DNA of 59,189 nucleotides, from assembly GCA_902802105.1 (NCBI GenBank), contig CADCKR010000009.1, positions 1-59,189 of the forward strand, in the 5' to 3' direction. Position numbers and translations under genes: made by a program. This DNA comes from an uncultured Ruminococcus sp. (GTDB lineage Bacteria; Bacillota; Clostridia; Oscillospirales; Acutalibacteraceae). The notes beneath the pieces were generated by a model. That model had not been told where the DNA came from. It was given only the letters and a program-made list of their open reading frames with translations, and did not search any database. This document shows, in pieces, positions 2,457-43,951 of the stretch (the stretch's first letter is position 1; each line of letters starts with the position of its first letter).

Positions 2457-2480
2457 TTTATAATTTTAAAAACGGGAATA

Positions 2481-2945
2481 TCAGCCTTGTCTCTGATAGT
2501 CGGCCTGATAATATGCGCCGTCCTCCTCCGTTATCTCCGTAAGAACAGAGCCTTGTACGCGGCAGGTAGAGATCACTCCGTCACTCCGCCTGATCGTTAT
2601 GGACATTCCGCCGTCAGCAGAGCTCCATGATGCGTTATAATTGCCAAGCTCTGCTTCTTCATTGTAATATACTGCACTTCCGTCAGGATTTATGACAAGT
2701 GTAGTGCGGTATGTCATGTCAAAGTATTCGTAGCTGTGTACCCATGTGCCTACAAAGCTGCTGCCGGGATTGTTTGCGGCAGGTGCAGTGTTGTATGACT
2801 GCTGTGTCGGATTATCCTGAAACGCCGGCTGACCGTTGGGGCCTATAAAACCGGGTGTGGGCGATATACCGCCGCCGGATGATCCGGAGCAGCCGGCAAG
2901 CAGCAATGTCATGCATAATACAATAAAAACAATAACCTTCCTCAT
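2481..2945 (-). CDS. Predicted small lipoprotein
   Basis: A 154-residue protein with an N-terminal lipoprotein signal: MRKV, a hydrophobic stretch, then the lipobox LLAGC with Cys19 as the lipidation site. A low-complexity Ser/Gly/Pro/Asn/Gln linker follows to about residue 62. The remaining 90 residues begin FVGTWVHS and continue with beta-strand-like segments (TTLVINPDGSAVYY), reminiscent of small lipocalin-like or META-like extracytoplasmic domains. I cannot assign a function. It should be anchored on the outer face of the cell membrane. It lies downstream of fbp on the same strand, 46 bases away. Confidence 0.7.
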   Translation of the reverse strand: MRKVIVFIVLCMTLLLAGCSGSSGGGISPTPGFIGPNGQPAFQDNPTQQSYNTAPAANNPGSSFVGTWVHSYEYFDMTYRTTLVINPDGSAVYYNEEAELGNYNASWSSADGGMSITIRRSDGVISTCRVQGSVLTEITEEDGAYYQADYQRQG

Positions 2946-2990
2946 AGTGTGCCTCCTGTGTTTTCGTTTGAAATATGCAGAACGGTATTA

Positions 2991-4898
2991 TTATAATGTT
3001 CTGCGTGATTCCGCATCGTGTGAGCCGATGTTGCTCCGCTTGTAATATTCAAGCAGCTCATAAAGATCGTCTATCTCCTCCATAATGCAGCGCCCGTTGT
3101 CGGTGTCCTTTACCATGACACGGTTCTTCTCGGTTTCGATGAGCTGAGAGCTTGAAATGATGTCCGTGTTTTCGCTGAGAGCTTTTTCGATAGACTCAAA
3201 CGGCTGATGAGCTTTTATGCGCAGTCCGTGCGAATTGTAAATGAGCGTATACCCTGCAATGCCGGTCTTGCGGTGATAGTCACGGCAGAAGCCGCCGTCT
3301 ATAACGAGCAGACGTCCGTTTGCTTTCAGAGGCTGTTCACCGCTTGATGCAAGCACCGGAGTATGCCCGTTGATAATGTGTGAATACGGCGAATAGAGGT
3401 CAAATTCACGCAGTATCATACTGCAGCACTTTTCCGTTTCGTAATACCTGTAATAAGGGTCGGATTCCTCATGCCAGGTGCTCTTGTCATCAATGTAATA
3501 ACGCTCAAAGGTCTTTATGTTCCTGCCGCAGAGAGGAGATTTCCTGCCGCACCAGAGGAACCAGAGAAGATCAAGATCCTCCGTGCTTTTTTCGCGGCTG
3601 TAAAAGACTCTCCTTACGGTGCTGTCGGCAACGTCAAGCAGTGCACGTCCCTTGTATATCCTGCCAAAAAGCTTTACCCCGCAGAAATTCCCGTCATCAT
3701 CAAGCGGGATACAGCCGTGATAGAGAAGGTTCCCGTTGTGGCAAAGATACATACTGCCCTTTTCAAGCAGGAAGCGGATATGCTTTCTCAGTCGTGAGCT
3801 GTTAAGAAAAGCGGCCTTCAGCTCATCCATGATAGCCTGCTCCTCCGGCGAATAGCTGAATGGTTCATTCGGGTCAAGCGTCGGGAGCGTGCTGTCGTTG
3901 AGCGGGTATGTACAGCCGTCAAGAGTTATTGTTCCGGCGCTCTTATCTATTTTATCAAGAAGCAGACGGTCGTTCATATTGTATTCGGGATGCCGCAGGA
4001 TAGTCTGCCCTTCCGCCTTGAACTGCATGACGGATATCGCCCTGAGTGCTCTTTTCATAACATCGGGATCATTGTAGGTATTGCCGGCAAATACAGTAAG
4101 TCTGCGCAGGCTTATGCCGTAGCCGCTTTCCAGTATTTCAAGCGTTTTGTATTTTATGCAGCCCCTTACGGCGTTGGCAATGCAGGCTTCGTTTCCGGCA
4201 GCTGCGCCTATCCATAGTATATCATGGTTACCCCACTGTATGTCAAGAGAATGATGCTTCATAAGCAGATCAAGTATCCTGTCGGCGTTGGCTCCGCGGT
4301 CGAAAATATCCCCGACAATGTGCAGGTGATCGACCGCAAGACGCTTGATAAGCCCTGCAAGAGCATCAATGAAGTCCTCGGCATCAATGCCTATGATGCT
4401 GTCAAGTATTTTTTCGTGATAGAGTATCTGGTTGTCGTCCTCGTCCTTCTGCGCATGAAGAAGCTCGTCAATGATATATGCATAGTCTGCGGGCATTGCC
4501 TTGCGCACCTTTGAACGGGTATATTTTGATGAGAGCACACCGGCAATTTCTATCATGCGGTGTATTATGAGCCGGTAGCGCTCAGAGCTTATGACACGCT
4601 CCCGCTTTATGTGGCGGAGCTTTTCCTTCGGGTAGTAGATTATTGTGCATATCTCCTCTATCTCGCTGTCAGAGAGACGGTCACGGTAGAGCATATCCGC
4701 CTTTTCGCGTATGACGCCTGCACAGTTGTTCAGGATATGACAGAAGGCTTCGTATTCTCCGTGAATATCGCTCATAAAGTGTTCAGTCCCCTTCGGCAGG
4801 TTGAGAATAGCCGAAAGATTGATTATCTCTCTTGAAAGAGAACGCATTGTGGGGTATTTTTCGGACAGCAGCCTTAAATATTTATTTCTCTGTTCCAT
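2991..4898 (-). CDS. fbp: Fructose-1,6-bisphosphatase, class III
   Basis: A 635-residue protein that removes the 1-phosphate of fructose 1,6-bisphosphate to give fructose 6-phosphate, a gluconeogenic step. Metallophosphatase motifs are visible: SDIHGEYEAF near residue 45, GDIFDRGANAD near 200, and WGNHDILWIGAA shortly after, together with the late INGHTPV and VIDGGF segments. Length matches the Firmicutes class III family (about 640-670). I chose the ATG at 4898 because AAAGGAG precedes it; the in-frame ATG at 4940 has no such site. It is divergent from the fructose operon, which fits a switch between fructose catabolism and gluconeogenesis. Confidence 0.95.
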   Translation of the reverse strand: MEQRNKYLRLLSEKYPTMRSLSREIINLSAILNLPKGTEHFMSDIHGEYEAFCHILNNCAGVIREKADMLYRDRLSDSEIEEICTIIYYPKEKLRHIKRERVISSERYRLIIHRMIEIAGVLSSKYTRSKVRKAMPADYAYIIDELLHAQKDEDDNQILYHEKILDSIIGIDAEDFIDALAGLIKRLAVDHLHIVGDIFDRGANADRILDLLMKHHSLDIQWGNHDILWIGAAAGNEACIANAVRGCIKYKTLEILESGYGISLRRLTVFAGNTYNDPDVMKRALRAISVMQFKAEGQTILRHPEYNMNDRLLLDKIDKSAGTITLDGCTYPLNDSTLPTLDPNEPFSYSPEEQAIMDELKAAFLNSSRLRKHIRFLLEKGSMYLCHNGNLLYHGCIPLDDDGNFCGVKLFGRIYKGRALLDVADSTVRRVFYSREKSTEDLDLLWFLWCGRKSPLCGRNIKTFERYYIDDKSTWHEESDPYYRYYETEKCCSMILREFDLYSPYSHIINGHTPVLASSGEQPLKANGRLLVIDGGFCRDYHRKTGIAGYTLIYNSHGLRIKAHQPFESIEKALSENTDIISSSQLIETEKNRVMVKDTDNGRCIMEEIDDLYELLEYYKRSNIGSHDAESRRTL

Positions 4899-5070
4899 TG
4901 TGCCGGCTCCTTTCAGGTGACAATAGTAAAATAGTTGCACTAAAATGCATCAATATGGCATATATGGCATCATTTGGCAAAACTCGAACATCTATGATTA
5001 AGTAATACCATAAAAACATGAATAAATAGTGAACTTTTGATTAACAATGAAGAAATTTGAAAGAATTTGC

Positions 5071-5098
5071 TTGACATTAGCAAAAATTCTGCTATAAT
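5071..5098 (+). promoter_or_regulatory. Promoter of the fructose PTS operon with internal palindrome
   Basis: TTGACA at 5071-5076 and an extended TGCTATAAT box (TATAAT at 5093-5098) lie 16 bases apart, 34 bases before the regulator gene. The spacer holds the inverted repeat TAGCA-N7-TGCTA (5078-5094), overlapping the -10 box. That is where a repressor would sit, so it is a likely operator for the DeoR-type protein encoded next. Confidence 0.8.
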
Positions 5099-5131
5099 TT
5101 GAACAAGAGGACTGAATCGGGGTGATGGATA

Positions 5132-5881
5132 ATGCTTACTCAGGAGCGATATAAGACTATTATTGATATCCTTTCCGAACGTGACGCCGCTACGGTGACA
5201 GAGCTTGCCGCTGCTCTCGGTATCTCGGAATCCACGATACGTCGTGATCTGATCGTGCTTGACAGAGAAGGCCGGCTTCGCAAGGTCTATGGAGGTGCGA
5301 CCGCTATAAACCGTACAGAAGGTATGGTCGAGGACGAGGTAAATGTCAGAGAACAGATAATGGCGCATGAGAAGGACATTATCGCAGAATATGCCGCTAC
5401 GCTCATCAATGACGACGATTTTGTCTACATTGATTCAGGCACGACCACTTCAAGGTTCGTGGAGCATATCGGCAGCTCGAGGGCAATATTCGTTACCAAC
5501 GGTATCATCCATGCTCAGAAGCTGCTGAACAAAGGTCTTAATGCTTACATGATCTGCGGCAGGATAAGACCGGTCACGGCTTCTGTCATCGGTTCGGAGG
5601 GAATAAACTACCTTCAAAGGTTCAATTTCACCAAGGCGTTCATCGGAACCAACGGCATAGACATCACTTCCGGCTATACAACGCCGGACAGCGATGAGGC
5701 TATGATGAAAGCCAAGGCGATAGAAAAGAGCTTTGCGGTGTTTGTCCTTGCGGATCACAGCAAATTCAGAAGGGTATATCCCGTGACATTTGCAGAGCTG
5801 AAAAAGTGCTGCATCATCACAGATAAGCTTCCCTACGGGAGCTTTTCGGATAAAACGATAATAAGGGAGGTGACATCATGA
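5132..5881 (+). CDS. DeoR-family transcriptional regulator of the fructose operon
   Basis: A 249-residue DeoR/GlpR-type protein. The N-terminal helix-turn-helix (residues 5-57) carries TVTELAAALGISESTIRRDL. The C-terminal DeoR sensor domain (residues about 75-230) contains DSGTTTSRFVEHI and FIGTNGID, the sugar-phosphate-binding segments of the family. In Firmicutes the homologue FruR represses the fructose operon and is relieved by fructose 1-phosphate. Its stop codon overlaps the start of the 1-phosphofructokinase gene (ATGA), so the two are translationally coupled. A palindrome in its own promoter suggests autoregulation. Confidence 0.92.
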   Translation: MLTQERYKTIIDILSERDAATVTELAAALGISESTIRRDLIVLDREGRLRKVYGGATAINRTEGMVEDEVNVREQIMAHEKDIIAEYAATLINDDDFVYIDSGTTTSRFVEHIGSSRAIFVTNGIIHAQKLLNKGLNAYMICGRIRPVTASVIGSEGINYLQRFNFTKAFIGTNGIDITSGYTTPDSDEAMMKAKAIEKSFAVFVLADHSKFRRVYPVTFAELKKCCIITDKLPYGSFSDKTIIREVTS

Positions 5882-6780
5882 TCTATACGCTTACGCTGAA
5901 TCCTTCCATCGACTATGTTGTTCATCTTGATTCATTTGTGAGCGGCATCACGAACCGCACTACAGGCGAGGACTACTTTATCGGCGGAAAGGGAATAAAT
6001 GTTTCCTGTATCCTTGCAGAGCTTGGGCTTAAAAGCACAGCTTTGGGCTTTACGGCAGGCTTTACAGGTGAAGCTATCGAAAAGGGACTGACAAAGCTTG
6101 GCATATGCTCAGACTTTATCAGGCTCAGGGATGGTATCTCGCGCATAAACATCAAGATGAAGGCCGAAAAGGAAAGCGAGATCAACTGTCAGGGACCGCA
6201 CATTTCCGAGGAAGAGTTTGAGCTGCTCCTTAAAAAGACCGATGAGATAACAGACGGCGACACCATCGTGCTTGCAGGAAGCATCCCGAAGACCGTAGCT
6301 GACGACGCTTACGAAAGGATACTGAAAAGACTTTCCGGAAAGGACGTCCGGATAGTTGTGGACGCAACCAGAAAGCTGCTGCTGAACTGCCTTGCATACA
6401 AGCCTTTCCTGATAAAGCCGAACCGTCAGGAGCTTTCGGAGATATTCGGGCGCGAGGTAAGCGACGAGCAGGAAACGGAAGCCTGCGCTAAGGAGCTTAT
6501 GAAGATGGGCGCAAGAAATGTTATCGTATCGCTCGGCGGAGACGGCGCAGTGCTCTTTGCAGAAGACGGAAATACTTATCATACAGGCGTTGTCAAGGAA
6601 AAGGTGCTGAACACTGTCGGTTCGGGAGATTCAATGGTCGCAGGCTTTATTGCAGGCTATGAGCAAAAGAGAGATTACGGTTATGCTCTGAAGCTCGGCA
6701 CAGCGTGCGGTAATGCAACGGCGTTTTCAATGGGTCTTGCATCAAGGGAAAAGATAATGGAAATATTTGACAGGCTTTAA
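5878..6780 (+). CDS. pfkB: 1-phosphofructokinase
   Basis: A 300-residue PfkB/ribokinase-family kinase that phosphorylates fructose 1-phosphate to fructose 1,6-bisphosphate. N-terminal TLNPSIDYVV and GGKGINVS and C-terminal GSGDSMVAGF (catalytic Asp near residue 250) are the family signatures. Length fits the FruK/LacC group. It starts inside the end of the regulator gene and is followed 33 bases later by the fructose transporter, so it acts on the transporter's product. The name fruK is equally used. A related tagatose-6-phosphate kinase role cannot be excluded but is unlikely here. Confidence 0.95.
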   Translation: MIYTLTLNPSIDYVVHLDSFVSGITNRTTGEDYFIGGKGINVSCILAELGLKSTALGFTAGFTGEAIEKGLTKLGICSDFIRLRDGISRINIKMKAEKESEINCQGPHISEEEFELLLKKTDEITDGDTIVLAGSIPKTVADDAYERILKRLSGKDVRIVVDATRKLLLNCLAYKPFLIKPNRQELSEIFGREVSDEQETEACAKELMKMGARNVIVSLGGDGAVLFAEDGNTYHTGVVKEKVLNTVGSGDSMVAGFIAGYEQKRDYGYALKLGTACGNATAFSMGLASREKIMEIFDRL

Positions 6781-6813
6781 TAACTTTAATTAAATCGTAA
6801 AGGAGGCAGTAAG

Positions 6814-33546: not shown

Positions 33547-34392
33547 TCAGCCGAACAAAGTCATAAGACGTATAAAAAACGCATCGCTGTCCGGATAGTT
33601 GAAATAGCTGAATACAAAATATATAAGTGCTGCTGTAAGAAATACTGAAGAAAGAATGATATATCCCCGCGCATAAGAACGTATGCTCTTATCCGCAAGA
33701 GGCACAAACGAAAGAACTATCGCGGATAATATATTGACGACCGGAAGCAAAAACAAAAGCTGCAGCACAACGGCTTTTGCTGTTGAAAGCGTCTTTTGGG
33801 GCGGCTCAGGCTTTTTTTCATCCTTATTGAACTCCGATCTTATTTCCGAAAAAAGCCTTCTCGTCCGTTCGTCTGCTTTCCGGTCAAGCTGAACAGCAGT
33901 TTCACTGTCAAACACCTTGCGGAACGGCGGGTGACAAAGACTCTCTATATCCATACGGGTGCGTTCACGTATGTAAAGCTCCTCGGCCACATCATATACA
34001 ATGCCCTGCGAGTGAAAAGATCGTCTTTTGTCCGAGTGAGAAAACAGGTCGTTGTCTGCCGGAGCAGGCTCCTCTTCCGGCTTTAACTGTTCGTCATAAC
34101 CCACCGACACAGCCTGCCCGCTCTCAAAGCTGCTCTGAGGCGGCATCATCTTTTCCGGAAGCTCATTTTTGCCTTTATTTCCGGCAGACTCAAAAAGCAA
34201 GGTAAGATTTCCTTTTTCATTTTGTATTGCTCCGGTCACCGTGTCATATACGGGGGCGGTATTTTTGTTCTTTTGTTTTTTGTTTTCCACCGCAGTATAC
34301 TCGACATATTCAACGAGAGGCAGTCCCGTTTCGTCGATCTCTACCGAAAATTCAGCTTCATCTGACAGCTTGTCAATAGTTTTGCAAGGCAT
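33547..34392 (-). CDS. Hypothetical protein with two C-terminal membrane segments
   Basis: A 281-residue protein I do not recognise. Residues 1-200 are polar and low in complexity, with Lys/Glu/Pro-rich stretches and no known motif; a short region LYIRERTRMDIESLCHPPF (about 137-155) looks structured. Two membrane helices lie near residues 208-232 and 243-265. It is probably a small membrane protein with a cytoplasmic disordered N-terminus. A GGAGGG site precedes the ATG. It is 50 bases downstream of the DUF1015 gene on the same strand and could share its transcript. Confidence 0.65.
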   Translation of the reverse strand: MPCKTIDKLSDEAEFSVEIDETGLPLVEYVEYTAVENKKQKNKNTAPVYDTVTGAIQNEKGNLTLLFESAGNKGKNELPEKMMPPQSSFESGQAVSVGYDEQLKPEEEPAPADNDLFSHSDKRRSFHSQGIVYDVAEELYIRERTRMDIESLCHPPFRKVFDSETAVQLDRKADERTRRLFSEIRSEFNKDEKKPEPPQKTLSTAKAVVLQLLFLLPVVNILSAIVLSFVPLADKSIRSYARGYIILSSVFLTAALIYFVFSYFNYPDSDAFFIRLMTLFG

Positions 34393-37373: not shown

Positions 37374-37402
37374 ATTATATCATCAAAACTATTCAATGTC
37401 AA
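37374..37402 (-). promoter_or_regulatory. Promoter of the rpsF operon
   Basis: On the minus strand TTGACA and TATAAT are perfect and 17 bases apart, about 80 bases before the rpsF start codon. Confidence 0.85.
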
Positions 37403-38444: not shown

Positions 38445-41400
38445 CTATTTCCTTATTGAGGATGCTATTATAGTTGTTACCGCCCAGAAGCCTATATAGA
38501 TAAGCATTTCCATACAGCCAAGCTTCTCGAATCCGGAAACAAATGATATCAGCGTTATTGTTCCTACACCAAGCACAATAGCTATGCACTGAAGTATCCT
38601 GGAGATCGTTACGTTAGATTTCATCTTTATGCAGCCCGACACTGCCCTTGCAAATGAGGATATTTTTCCTCTTGTTACAAGATATGCCCTTGAACGCTCC
38701 TCTGTTTTTGAGGTCACGCTGCTGCATATTCTGCCAAGATTTGTCGGCAGCACAGTGATACAGCGGTGGAACAGTCCGAATCTATCAGCGATACTCTCGC
38801 GGGTAATATTCGAGTCAACAGTGCGCACTATAAAGCTTACTCCGTTCTGTTCCAGCTCGTGCAGCTCGTTTGCTACGTTCTTTGTAGTTTTGTATGTGAG
38901 TATGAACATTGCTATAAGGTCGCCGCCAACAGAAATATACATGACGTCATTTCCCATTTTGCGGTATCTTTCCTCGGCTTCTTCATCCGGCAGCTCGATC
39001 TTATGATTAGCAAGTATCTTACGGTTGCCTATAAGCACACGGCTGCCTTTCACCCACGCCGAAAGCCCCATTCCGTCCTCGTAGTAAACGCTTTCTACCT
39101 TGGGGAGCTGATCTCTGCTGCACTGAACTATATTTTCAAAAACATGGGTCATGGTACCGTTTACCTTATACATTATCGCAGCACCGGCAAGAAGAGCGTC
39201 GTTGAGCATACTCTGCTTGAATGACTTCATGCCGCTGAGCGCAACGGAGCCTACAGGATAGAGCTGTGATGAATCTATCATTATCGCATTGGTATCGGCA
39301 AACTGAGTTACCGTTTCATAGCCGGTTATCATAGCGCCCTTTTTCAGGGTATTGCTGCACAGCCGCCTCATAGGTATATTCACCGCAAGCAGGCATACCA
39401 TAGGAACACTCATGCAGGCGGTAAGCGCAAACGATGAAAGAGCGCCTGTAAAGCTTCGGCTTATCATTCCGTAGGCTATGCCGCACAGAACAGAAAATAC
39501 GGTCGTCCACGGAGCAAACCACGAAGCAAGCTTTTCACTCGGGTCGGGCGCGTATGAAAGCTGAAGGAAATTGCTCATAAACTTTGAGCGGCACATATAA
39601 CCTATTATTGCACTCTGCATCGAAAGCTCGGATGTCATAAGCTGAGCGTTTTCCCTGTCAGTATATATCTTGCCTGCATATTTCGGGAAAGGCTTTATAA
39701 GGAAGTTGAAATTATAAAGCGTTCTTGTTATTATGAGAAGCTTGCCTATCGAGTTAAGGAACAAGCCGAGTATAACAAGCGGAGTGTATATAAATAAGGT
39801 TCCGTTAATGAAAATATCCGGAGTAAATATCGCGGCAATATTCTGCATTGCGGCAGCTACAGCAGCAACCGCCAGAGCTGTATCGGAATTGCCCTTGAAG
39901 CGCCTGAGCGGCATAAGGCCGCTGACGATAGGATTTCTTGCCAATATAACGGATATGCCGAAAATTATAAAGCTGATTATCGCAAACCAGAGCCAGCCGT
40001 TTCTGATCGTTTCGCTGAATAAAGCTGTACATTGTGCTATTATCGAAAGCATGACAGCTGCGACTGTAGCCGCAGCAAGTGCGATAGTCCTTGCAAAGAT
40101 GCCCTGTAAATTTGTAGCTATCTCTGTTTTTATAGCTTCTGCGTCCGATTCCTCTGTATAGTCGTCAAGCTGAGGCTTCGGCTTTTGCTCCGGCTTGCGC
40201 TCCATCATGTCATCGGGGTCAAATTCTTCCTCATTTGTAAAAAGCTCGCTGAAACGTATTTTTTGCTTTTCCTTCTTTGCTTTTGCGGCTTTATGCTTTG
40301 AGGCACGCTTTTCAGCCTTTTTTTCCTCTGCATCTCTTTCGGAATCCCTTATCTCCCTTATGTCAGTGACCTTCGGTTCAACATCTTTCAGCACGTCCGC
40401 AAGAGTGCTCTTGGTCTTATCCTGATCTGAGCTGTCTTTATCCGAATGAGCCGTCCTGCCTTTGTCGCTGCGGGTAAACATTGATTTAAGCTTGACTGCC
40501 GCAGAGGGCTTTTCGTCTTTGATATCCTGTCCGATCTCGCTGCTGCCGGAGTGAGGTTTAGCTCTGTCAGTAAGCGGAGCCGGTTCCGGCGCAGTGTTTT
40601 TAGGCGGTTTAGGGAATTTCTTCGGAGTGTTCTTTTTTATCTGTTCCGCTTTGGCAGCAGCGGCAGCTTCTTCAAGCTTTTTTTGCTCAAGAAGCTTCTG
40701 CGCGGCTTCACGTCTTATTTCCCTCAGAGCTTCATACTCTCCTCTGAGCGTGCGTGTAAACTTTCCTGCAAGAACAACAAATGTTTCATTTCCAAGATAG
40801 TGATATGTGACTGTAGTTGCGTGACCTTCTGTAAGGTCTTTTTCTTTATGCGGTGTATCATTCTTTTCGGAAGCATAAACCACATTGTCGCTGACATCTA
40901 TCGGTGTTTTCTGCTTCGGACGTCTGTGCCATCTGTCCTCCTCGGCTTTGCTCTCCGGAACAGAGTCTGAAAGTGAAATAACATTTCCTTCCGGCTGAGC
41001 AGCATAAGCGGAATCATCGTTTATTTCCGGCTGTGCTGCCTGCTTCGGACGTCTGTGCCATCTGTCCTCCTCAGCTTTGCTCTCCGGAACAGAGTCTGAA
41101 AGTGAAACAACATTTTCTTCCGGCTGAGCAGTTTGCAGGGCGTCAGATATATCGGATGCGGAAATAACAACTGCTTTTTCTGCATCGTCTGCTTTATTTT
41201 CCGTTTCGGAACGATCGGCTGTTTCTGCATCGGAAGTCTGAGCATCGTTTACAACAGAATTCTTTATGCCGGACGATACATCAGCGGCGTTTTTATCTGT
41301 AACGGCATTTTCCTTTACATCAGCTTTTTCACCTTTCTGAACCGCTTCTGCCTTTGATACTTCCGGCAGATCTTCTGTCAAGCTATCGGTCTTTACTGTT

Positions 41401-43172
41401 TCATCCTGCATTGAAGAAGCCGTTTTTTCCTGAGAAACCGGAGCGTTCGCCTTTTCAGCTGCGGCTTTTGCCGCATTTGCCTGCTGTTCCTTTGCAAACT
41501 CGGCAAAGATATCGAAAACCGGAAGCTCCTTCTTCTTATGTGTATCCGTTGGCTTTTCACGGATCTCAGCATTTTTTTCGGGCGGCTTGTGGGCAGCCGG
41601 AACATTTACAGGAAGATGTCTGCCGTGTTCAGGCGCCGCTTCTTCAACAGGCGGCTGAATTTTCTGCTTTTTCTCCTGCCTGATATTTCTGTTCTGACTT
41701 CGTTCAGTATCACTTTTTAACGCAGAGATCAATTTATCGGCCGGGATCTCTATAATACTGTTTTCCTTTACTGATGTTTCAGGCAGCATTTCAGGTTCAG
41801 CTGACGGAGCAGCACTCTCTTTTTCCTTTTCAAAGGGCTGTTCTGATACGGCAGAGTATATCTGCACGGCTTCATGCTGCTTCTCAACGGCTGACAAAGT
41901 ATCAGCTTCCGTATCAGACACATTATCAGAAGGCTCCTTCTGTTCGTTCTCACCGTGAGCATACATTTCGTCCGAAACGTCCGCCGGTTCTTCAATAACA
42001 GAAGCTTCAGAATTTTCCTGCATTGCCGGTGCGATATCCTGTTCAGCAAATGACGCCGAAGCTTCAGGCAGCTGTACATCCTGTGCCGCTGCAGTTTTCC
42101 GCTCTGCATTCACTGCTTCTGACTGCGCAGGCTTAACGCTTTTTTCGGCCTGAGCATCCTGCGCATCGGAATTATCAGCTTTTTCAGCCGGCTTTACATT
42201 CTTTCTCAACAGACGTGAGATTATATCGTCATCGTAGTCTGTTATGTCTCCGCTGTCTTCGTTATAGTCGTCATATTCTTCTATTTTCAGACGGCTGAGT
42301 ATCTTCGGAAGCTTTGGTGAAGGCTTGCTTTCCTTCACAGGAACAGCTGTCTGAGTTTTATATCTTTCCTTGAAAGAATCATTATTTGCATTATCATCCT
42401 GATCTGAAACAGACTCATCATATTCAGGCTCAATATCAGGCTCAGGGCTGTCCTCGGCTTCCGGCTTCTGCTTCATCGCATTCAGAAGACTGCCGAAGCC
42501 TGATCTCAGCTTGCTGAAAAATCTCCCTGATTTTTTCTTTCCGACAGACGAAGCGGCAAATACTACATCATCCGTACTTTTATCTGTCTGCTTTTCCTCC
42601 GCTGCGGAAGATGGCAGCGCCTGATTCGGGTATCTGTCCGAGTAAGCATACTGAACATCCTGCTTTTCAGCATCACCATTGTTTTGAACTGCCTGCTGCT
42701 GCGGGCTTTGTGCATAACCATACTCAGCATCACCATTGTTTTGAACTGCCTGCTGCTGTGAGCTTTCTGCATAACCATACTCAGCATCACCATTGTTTGG
42801 AACTGCCTGCTGCTGCGAGCTTTCTGCATAACCATACTCAGCATCACCATTGTTTTGAACTGTCTGCTGCTGCGGGCTTTCTGCATAACTATACTCAGCA
42901 TCCTGCTTTTCAGCATCACCATAGTTTTGTGCTGACTGCTGCTGTGCTTTATCTTCTTCGGCTTTATTTTTCGCCTTGTTTGCAGCAGCATCTTCCTTTT
43001 TTTGTGACTCAATTATGCACTTTTTGATATATGCCTCTAAGTCTGAATCGCTGTTATCTCTGACAAAAGACCGTCCCTGCTTAGCCGGCTGCTGCCCGCT
43101 TACATTGAAAAGATTTTTGAGCGTAGAAGCTGACGAACCCTCGGATTGGCTGTTTTTGTTTTCCTTTGACAT
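38445..43172 (-). CDS. Very large protein with disordered N-terminus and catalytically degenerate P-type-ATPase-like membrane region
   Basis: A 1575-residue protein. Residues 1 to about 1010 are acidic and Gln/Glu/Lys/Ala-rich, with tandem repeats and no known domain. From about 1015 there are roughly eight membrane helices in a P1-type ATPase-like order. LKKGAMITGYETVTQFADTN aligns to the segment before the phosphorylation loop, but DKTGT reads DSSQL (near residue 1299). The N domain is recognisable (DGMGLSAWVKGSRVLIGN), the TGDN motif reads TVDS, and GDGxNDxP is absent. It cannot be a normal ion pump. The ATG at 43172 follows GGAGG and the gene starts 6 bases after rlmB, so they form one operon. 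Function unknown. Confidence 0.8.
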   Translation of the reverse strand: MSKENKNSQSEGSSASTLKNLFNVSGQQPAKQGRSFVRDNSDSDLEAYIKKCIIESQKKEDAAANKAKNKAEEDKAQQQSAQNYGDAEKQDAEYSYAESPQQQTVQNNGDAEYGYAESSQQQAVPNNGDAEYGYAESSQQQAVQNNGDAEYGYAQSPQQQAVQNNGDAEKQDVQYAYSDRYPNQALPSSAAEEKQTDKSTDDVVFAASSVGKKKSGRFFSKLRSGFGSLLNAMKQKPEAEDSPEPDIEPEYDESVSDQDDNANNDSFKERYKTQTAVPVKESKPSPKLPKILSRLKIEEYDDYNEDSGDITDYDDDIISRLLRKNVKPAEKADNSDAQDAQAEKSVKPAQSEAVNAERKTAAAQDVQLPEASASFAEQDIAPAMQENSEASVIEEPADVSDEMYAHGENEQKEPSDNVSDTEADTLSAVEKQHEAVQIYSAVSEQPFEKEKESAAPSAEPEMLPETSVKENSIIEIPADKLISALKSDTERSQNRNIRQEKKQKIQPPVEEAAPEHGRHLPVNVPAAHKPPEKNAEIREKPTDTHKKKELPVFDIFAEFAKEQQANAAKAAAEKANAPVSQEKTASSMQDETVKTDSLTEDLPEVSKAEAVQKGEKADVKENAVTDKNAADVSSGIKNSVVNDAQTSDAETADRSETENKADDAEKAVVISASDISDALQTAQPEENVVSLSDSVPESKAEEDRWHRRPKQAAQPEINDDSAYAAQPEGNVISLSDSVPESKAEEDRWHRRPKQKTPIDVSDNVVYASEKNDTPHKEKDLTEGHATTVTYHYLGNETFVVLAGKFTRTLRGEYEALREIRREAAQKLLEQKKLEEAAAAAKAEQIKKNTPKKFPKPPKNTAPEPAPLTDRAKPHSGSSEIGQDIKDEKPSAAVKLKSMFTRSDKGRTAHSDKDSSDQDKTKSTLADVLKDVEPKVTDIREIRDSERDAEEKKAEKRASKHKAAKAKKEKQKIRFSELFTNEEEFDPDDMMERKPEQKPKPQLDDYTEESDAEAIKTEIATNLQGIFARTIALAAATVAAVMLSIIAQCTALFSETIRNGWLWFAIISFIIFGISVILARNPIVSGLMPLRRFKGNSDTALAVAAVAAAMQNIAAIFTPDIFINGTLFIYTPLVILGLFLNSIGKLLIITRTLYNFNFLIKPFPKYAGKIYTDRENAQLMTSELSMQSAIIGYMCRSKFMSNFLQLSYAPDPSEKLASWFAPWTTVFSVLCGIAYGMISRSFTGALSSFALTACMSVPMVCLLAVNIPMRRLCSNTLKKGAMITGYETVTQFADTNAIMIDSSQLYPVGSVALSGMKSFKQSMLNDALLAGAAIMYKVNGTMTHVFENIVQCSRDQLPKVESVYYEDGMGLSAWVKGSRVLIGNRKILANHKIELPDEEAEERYRKMGNDVMYISVGGDLIAMFILTYKTTKNVANELHELEQNGVSFIVRTVDSNITRESIADRFGLFHRCITVLPTNLGRICSSVTSKTEERSRAYLVTRGKISSFARAVSGCIKMKSNVTISRILQCIAIVLGVGTITLISFVSGFEKLGCMEMLIYIGFWAVTTIIASSIRK
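40912..41132 (-). repeat. Duplicated 43-codon segment
   Basis: About 92 bp (40912-41004) recur at 41041-41132 with few changes, encoding the twice-repeated SLSDSVPESKAEED and RWHRRPKQ. It is an internal duplication in the disordered N-terminal part of the large protein. Confidence 0.85.
42666..42926 (-). repeat. 57-bp tandem repeat array
   Basis: Four to five copies of a 57-bp unit encode the 19-residue repeat AEYGYAESSQQQAVQNNGD near the N-terminus of the large protein. Units differ slightly (SP or SS, TV or AV), so copy number could vary among strains. Confidence 0.85.
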
Positions 43173-43177
43173 AGGAA

Positions 43178-43951
43178 TCAACCTCCGTTTACTGCTTTTA
43201 TGCCAAGACGCTGACGTGTAAATTCATACATTAGTATTCCTGCCGCAACAGAAGCGTTCAGAGAATTTATTTTCCCGCGCATAGGCAGAGAAAGTATCAC
43301 GTCACACTTTTCTCTTACGAGCTTGCCTATGCCGCTGCCCTCAGAGCCGATAACAAGTGCAGCGGCACCCCTGAGATCGTTTGCTGCATAGTCAGAGCCC
43401 TTCATGTCTGCGCCGTATATCCAGCAGCCTCTTTCCTTCAGCTCGTCAAGTGTTGAAGGAATATTAGTCACACGGGCAACGGGCATATATTCATAAGCGC
43501 CTGCGGATGTCTTGCCGACTGCATAGCTAAGCCCCGCAGCACGTCTTTTAGGTATGATTATTCCGTGTGCGCCTGCACACTCGGCGGTACGGATGATCGC
43601 CCCAAGGTTGTGAGCGTCCTCTATCTCATCAAGCACGATAATAAAAGGCGGCTCGTTCCTGCTCTCTGCAAGCCGGAATATATCATCGACCGTAGAATAT
43701 TCCTTTATGGCTGCAAGAGCAGCCACGCCCTGATGAGATGCACCCGAGCACATCATATCGAGCTTTTTGCGGTCAACCTCTTTGACAGGTATCTGCATAG
43801 CCTTAGCCTTTGCTGCAATGACCTTTATTGAGCCGTTGAGTTCTCCCTTGGCAATAAGTATGCTGTCGATTGCCCTGCCTGAGCGAAGCGCTTCTGTAAC
43901 AGGATTTCTTCCTGCGATAATGTCGCTTCCTTTTTCAAACTTATCGTTCAA
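43178..43951 (-). CDS. rlmB: 23S rRNA (guanosine-2'-O)-methyltransferase RlmB
   Basis: A 257-residue SPOUT (TrmH-family) methyltransferase. The N-terminal substrate-binding domain begins IIAGRNPVTEALRSG. The C-terminal knotted domain has the three SPOUT motifs: LDEIEDAHNLGAIIRTAE (motif 1), LVIGSEGSGIGKLV (motif 2) and LSLPMRGKINSLNASVAAGI (motif 3, as two parts). It methylates 23S rRNA at the G2251-equivalent position in the peptidyl-transferase centre. The start appears to be a TTG at 43951, with AGGGTG 8 bases before it. It is followed 6 bases later by the P-type-ATPase-like gene. Confidence 0.93.
   Translation of the reverse strand: MNDKFEKGSDIIAGRNPVTEALRSGRAIDSILIAKGELNGSIKVIAAKAKAMQIPVKEVDRKKLDMMCSGASHQGVAALAAIKEYSTVDDIFRLAESRNEPPFIIVLDEIEDAHNLGAIIRTAECAGAHGIIIPKRRAAGLSYAVGKTSAGAYEYMPVARVTNIPSTLDELKERGCWIYGADMKGSDYAANDLRGAAALVIGSEGSGIGKLVREKCDVILSLPMRGKINSLNASVAAGILMYEFTRQRLGIKAVNGG

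Follow-up and report, generated by a model that had tools for sequence, protein, structure and literature searches.

A conserved, probably non-pumping relative of P1B-type ATPases encoded behind rlmB in the order Oscillospirales

Introduction

The stretch of DNA analysed here (the window; 59,189 nt from an uncultured Ruminococcus sp.) carries a gene whose product resembles an ion pump with altered catalytic motifs, which raises the question of whether it is a pump in decay or a protein maintained for another function. Few enzymes are understood as well as the P-type ATPases. In the pumps, the DKTGT motif, the GDGxND segment and the TGE motif carry the phosphorylation-dephosphorylation cycle, and CPC forms the metal site. 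To our knowledge, inactive relatives of P-type ATPases have hardly been described, and a literature search for pseudo-P-type ATPase under such terms returned no paper. The window belongs to the order Oscillospirales (GTDB lineage) of the class Clostridia, and genus, order and class below refer to this placement. The order includes many gut and rumen bacteria.

The gene and its start

The reading frame is open on the minus strand from a TTG at 43181 to position 38445 and encodes 1,578 aa. The initial annotation ended the gene at 43172, which is the better start because GGAGG stands 9 nt before that ATG. GGAGG lies inside the last codons of rlmB, so the two genes of the window are probably translated from one message. 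In the product, a low-complexity stretch of about 990 residues precedes a domain of 585 residues (Table 1). An open reading frame artefact was ruled out by the length of the frame and by homologues across the order, and chance is excluded because 110 distinct full-length homologues were found.

Two further features were seen elsewhere in the window. A sigma-70-like promoter with a 12/12 match (TTGACA-17-TATAAT with TG) lies at 37374-37402 (-), just upstream of genes named by eye as rpsF-ssb. A 281-aa open reading frame at 33547-34392 (-) has hydrophobic C-terminal segments, as judged by eye, and no Pfam match over the cut-off.

Table 1. Features of the pseudopump locus, in window coordinates
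Feature	Position	Strand	Remarks
rlmB, 23S rRNA G2251 2'-O-methyltransferase, upstream neighbour	43178..43951	-	TIGR00186 E 1.2e-71
GGAGG ribosome-binding site within rlmB 3' end	43182..43186	-	9 nt before ATG at 43172
Pseudo-P1B-ATPase gene	38445..43172	-	likely ATG start; TTG at 43181 also possible
Tandem array in tail, 57-bp (19-aa) x 4.1, Gln-rich	42667..42902	-	
Conserved island in tail, residues ~781-835, KDLTEG...GKFTRTLRGEYEA	40677..40841	-	33/34 genus members
Juxtamembrane motif LDDYTxxxDAxxI	40131..40169	-	recurs across order; Y or F in 87/110 members
First four membrane helices, MA/MB/M1/M2 equivalents	39717..40103	-	approximate ends; aligned to LpCopA 71-217 and pump profile
Shrunken actuator region without TGE	39531..39716	-	~50-60 aa vs ~117 in LpCopA
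M3-M4 equivalents, CPC reads SVP	39360..39530	-	alignment to LpCopA and pumps
DSSQL at DKTGT position	39261..39275	-	alignment
N domain	38889..39251	-	two glycines invariant, SEHP His lost
TVDS at TGDN position	38811..38822	-	alignment
Site of missing GDGxND-bearing P-domain segment, approximate	38673..38708	-	columns gapped in 110/110; LpCopA 614-657 unaligned
M5-M6 equivalents	38451..38618	-	pump profile; weak third stretch vs LpCopA

P1B ancestry

In profile-profile comparison with hhalign, the C-terminal 585-residue domain matched a P1B ATPase profile with probability 100 and E 5.7e-42 over 568 columns, and the alignment covers all eight P1B helices. LpCopA (PDB 3rfu) was matched at E 1e-36, and the top-ranked PDB matches are P1B. 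The N-domain fold is kept and retains two glycines. These matches bear out the proposal that the C-terminal ~560 residues keep P1-ATPase order and an N-domain-like segment. Profile homology over the membrane, P and N domains places the protein in the P1B homology family; the curated cut-off of TIGR01525 was not reached by the window protein. An AlphaFold model of the whole domain, with six sequences only as input, had a pLDDT of 42. The C-terminal domain is read from these alignments as a descendant of a P1B-type heavy-metal ATPase with the eight-helix layout and the N-domain fold kept.

Loss of the catalytic motifs

Alignments to LpCopA and to pumps agree with the initial annotation that DKTGT reads DSSQL and TGDS/TGDN reads TVDS in the window, and that GDGxND is absent. 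The last motif has no counterpart: LpCopA residues 614-657 fall between two aligned stretches, and the columns are gapped. Three losses come in addition, namely CPC (SVP), the actuator TGE and the N-domain His.

Motif letters were read in a set of 110 distinct full-length members, drawn from 22 taxonomic families and aligned together with 19 pumps; the gene itself was found in 241 genomes. Six open reading frame pieces of two split genes (L031, and a second one recorded as both L039 and L066) and duplicates sharing identical ends were dropped to reach 110. Of 30 divergent genomes placed, 25 were taken into the sampling. The pumps comprise 16 matches from outside the order and three second matches taken as pumps.

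All 19 pumps show DKTGT, TGD, GDGxND, CPC, TGE and HP in this alignment. The DKTGT phosphorylation motif was found in 0/110 members, a zero that is partly by construction since the first sorting into members and pumps used the motifs themselves. In a motif-independent check, neither DKTGT/DRTGT nor GDGxND occurred in any of 128 profile matches from the loci sampled as the family's site in the order. At GDGxND the alignment has gaps in every one of the 110 members, and a single member has a GDGxxD word away from that site. No TGE was aligned in the 110 members, with its G and E columns gapped in 108. Aligned CPC was absent from all 110. The Pro itself was retained in 90 and is flanked by a Cys in two. 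The N-domain His, part of the HP motif for ATP, was found in 0/110 members.

The members also share conserved features of their own. The TGDN site reads T-x-D, with the Asp in 104/110 members. Just after the old DKTGT site, [FY] stands in 107/110 and P in 89/110. Most of a set of 35 diverse members have D-x-N-[ILV]-T (N in 30/35). A 49-sequence alignment shows both N-domain glycines without variation and, close to the C-terminus, a Trp conserved at 90% or more. The members are thus a maintained class rather than a set of independent decays. The initial annotation had asked whether the DSSQL and TVDS positions are conserved as a class: the loss of the pump motifs is class-wide, and the exact letters are not fixed, with DSSQL in 18/34 and TVDS in 3/34 genus members.

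The DKTGT aspartate is present in the window and in 58/110 members (34/34 in the genus and 24/76 outside it, where the region is possibly misaligned by one residue). Outside the genus, a D-x-D beside the old nucleophile would correspond to HAD-phosphatase motif I, and the protein could then be a re-wired enzyme. Acidic residues are often found where DKTGT has its K and G (D in 51, and D in 43 plus E in 21, of 110), and the T-x-D of the TGDN site is retained. This reading is very unlikely: the segment with GDGxND is missing throughout, the P-domain Lys is kept in only 3/110 members, and most of the genus has no D-x-D there. With the TGD Asp nearly always present and the two N-domain glycines invariant, some ligand binding may persist in the pseudopump.

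Two further alternatives concern the membrane part. It could be a channel or carrier that still moves a substrate independently of ATP, and the retention of all eight helices and a conserved N-x-D-T segment (consensus) ahead of an early helix are in keeping with this; the CPC position, of which just the proline is common, makes it improbable. Alternatively, the dead protein could act as a regulatory subunit that pairs with, and tunes, a true P1B pump present in the cell. The helix layout is kept, and the two order genomes examined for other matches (L064, L065) have intact P1B pumps elsewhere. This pairing also has a low probability, given that the metal-binding CPC is not kept and that the fixed neighbour is rlmB and no pump gene. 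The pseudopump is, as judged by its motifs, very probably without ion pumping.

Distribution and selection

In a profile search (E <= 1e-40), the gene was found in 241 of 247 genomes of the order, sampled with a completeness of 90 or more, and in 132/134 genera. Genomes have one match each, except two with two matches; one of these is a gene split over contigs. Of the six genomes without a match at the threshold, five likewise gave no convincing match for rlmB (best E 8e-17 to 7e-6), and in the sixth the contig stops 422 nt past rlmB. No real loss is therefore claimed. In one of the six (G381), the EF-G-like neighbour was likewise not matched at 1e-60, which would fit an assembly gap.

A class sample contained 15 genomes of the order, of which 14 gave a match of E <= 1e-97 spanning almost the entire profile. 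None of its 278 genomes from other orders gave a full-length match. Among the matches listed, the best from other orders reach 4e-38 and cover about positions 220-515 of the profile; the 16 that were opened are intact pumps. In a phylum sample, 2/199 genomes matched at 1e-37, both of the window's order. The weakest member scores 199.3 versus 194.1 for the best pump, a small gap, and the profile spans (540-632 for members versus 323-574 for pumps) give a less clean separation. In the gene tree, all 110 members group in a single clade to the exclusion of the pumps (support 0.925, stem 1.29). Clean clades were recovered for 11 of the 15 taxonomic families with at least two members, the others being f1, f14, f21 and f26.

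The C-terminal domain is under purifying selection. Its dN/dS is 0.053 and 0.037 between the window and its two nearest relatives and 0.025-0.164 in the 7/15 pairs with defined dS, dS being saturated in the other eight.

A decaying pump or pseudogene without function would account for the lost motifs and for a few broken members: the frame is split in L031 and L039 (genomes G082 and G071) and broken in the tail of L008 (G018). These breaks are compatible with both sequencing error and recent decay. Decay was rejected, and its probability is negligible, on account of open frames conserved order-wide, replacement motifs that are themselves conserved, motif loss across the class and low dN/dS in the C-terminal domain. 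The initial annotation had allowed for a decayed pump with homologues carrying an intact DKTGT, and none of the 128 profile matches at the family's site carries one. Catalytic residues are lost across a conserved clade under selection, and the protein is almost certainly a conserved pseudoenzyme derived from P1B ATPases. The earlier interpretation is supported and gains in scope, from one odd gene to a near-universal family of an order.

The N-terminal tail

The tail had been described as a long acidic, Gln-rich repeat region of 1,000 residues. It is acidic in the window, with a net charge of -60 over 991 residues and 6.7% Q, and repeats make up only part of it. Besides the tandem array, a stretch of ~30 aa is present in two copies, as seen by eye in the translation. 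A tail of ~990 residues is present in the window and is not general in the family; frames of 553 to 1,418 aa were found, and the repeat tail was rejected as a defining feature.

A conserved island of ~55 residues stands ~700-810 residues before the C-terminus and was matched at E 8e-20 to 3e-28 in all genus members except L026, a short frame at a contig start. In a search outside the genus, only weak traces of the island were found. The remaining tail diverges fast (pN 0.41, pS 0.78 for the window versus L101). The tail shows no conservation across the order, and a scaffold function shared by all members could therefore not reside in it, unless the juxtamembrane motif is what provides this function.

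Gene neighbourhood

Directly upstream and on the same strand, rlmB was found in 76 of the 78 members for which 500 nt or more of upstream sequence was available; the other 32 of 110 have too little and were left out of the count. In one exception, L008, the upstream gene was not reached past the broken frame. In the other, L059 (G061, 2469-6784), the gene lies behind obg, with an L21-like frame at 2469-2828 recognised by eye, so that this relocated copy, too, has ribosome-related neighbours. As a rough control, the genes before rlmB fell into 39 clusters among 46 loci outside the genus, the largest with three, when the longest same-strand open reading frame of at least 100 aa was taken; some picks are spurious, and 15 of the 61 loci with room had none.

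Downstream gene types were named from representatives. In 72 loci outside the genus with room, the gene directly downstream is EF-G-like in 18 (for example L042 4458-6545 and L157 8824-10998; two representatives match NF009381), a TIGR03960-like radical SAM gene in 11 and yebC in two. The other 41 have none of these three types, with something else or nothing close downstream. The rpe gene is downstream in 32/104 loci, nearly all of the window's genus. Among the neighbours, rlmB alone is constant, and those that vary tend towards translation. RlmB is a probable operon partner of the pseudopump.

In B. subtilis, rlmB is followed by the gene of the YacP/Rae1 nuclease. The corresponding family PF05991 was found in 19/59 order genomes, always within a frame that is open over at least 861 aa (for example G000:C23:10581-10982, with 18 other order genomes), and in 41/59 genomes of a class sample (two of the window's order), some in short frames. 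These counts bear on a reading of the pseudopump gene as a YacP/Rae1 replacement behind rlmB.

Proposed function

An order-specific, non-catalytic pseudopump, present once per genome behind rlmB, is the likely explanation of the observations as a whole. With DKTGT, the GDGxND segment, TGE, CPC and the N-domain His lost, the protein would not pump and would serve as a membrane anchor. The helix bundle and N domain would form a platform that is either fixed or moved by a ligand, and the cytosolic tail, with short conserved islands in low-complexity sequence, would hold a partner at the membrane. A scaffold or sensor role of this kind is probable.

The partner would most likely be part of the translation or ribosome-assembly machinery. 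This type is favoured because the neighbour is almost always rlmB and the others are often EF-G-like or related. A translation-linked partner is proposed tentatively, at somewhat less than an even chance; the link is drawn from gene neighbourhood, and such neighbours could be incidental. In the most far-reaching form of the proposal, which is possible and rather doubtful, a metal pump was converted into a membrane platform where the translation machinery docks or is sensed, and the protein constitutes the first bacterial pseudo-P-type ATPase family and defines the order. If it is true, RlmB-dependent ribosome assembly or membrane-bound translation would perhaps be under the control of membrane or ligand signals. 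Its presence in nearly all genomes of the order makes the gene a strong candidate for an important function, and the tight linkage to rlmB provides a direct experimental entry.

Comparison with known systems

The pseudopump is recognisably P1B-like over the whole domain. It has in common with P1B ATPases (LpCopA, TIGR01525) the eight helices, the M3-M4-P-N-P order, the N-domain glycines and T-x-D. It differs from them in having no DKTGT, GDGxND, TGE, CPC or N-domain His and in its shrunken actuator region, and no heavy-metal-binding domain was found among its Pfam or NCBIfam matches. RlmB (TIGR00186) is a different protein connected to it by linkage only.

Human TMEM94/ERMA is a published likeness. 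A structural paper (PMC12134183) describes it as lacking TGES and as having A, P and N domains of P-type-like form. The same paper argues against a transport cycle and gives TMEM94 ten helices and a structure nearest to the Ca2+ pump SPCA. An opposing view holds that TMEM94 is an ER Mg2+ ATPase (PMC13322241). By these descriptions, TMEM94 and the pseudopump are both P-type-like proteins without TGE(S), whereas TMEM94 is eukaryotic, ten-helix and SPCA-like and the pseudopump is bacterial, eight-helix and P1B-derived. TMEM94, whose role is disputed, shows that a P-type-like architecture without TGES or a visible transport cycle can exist.
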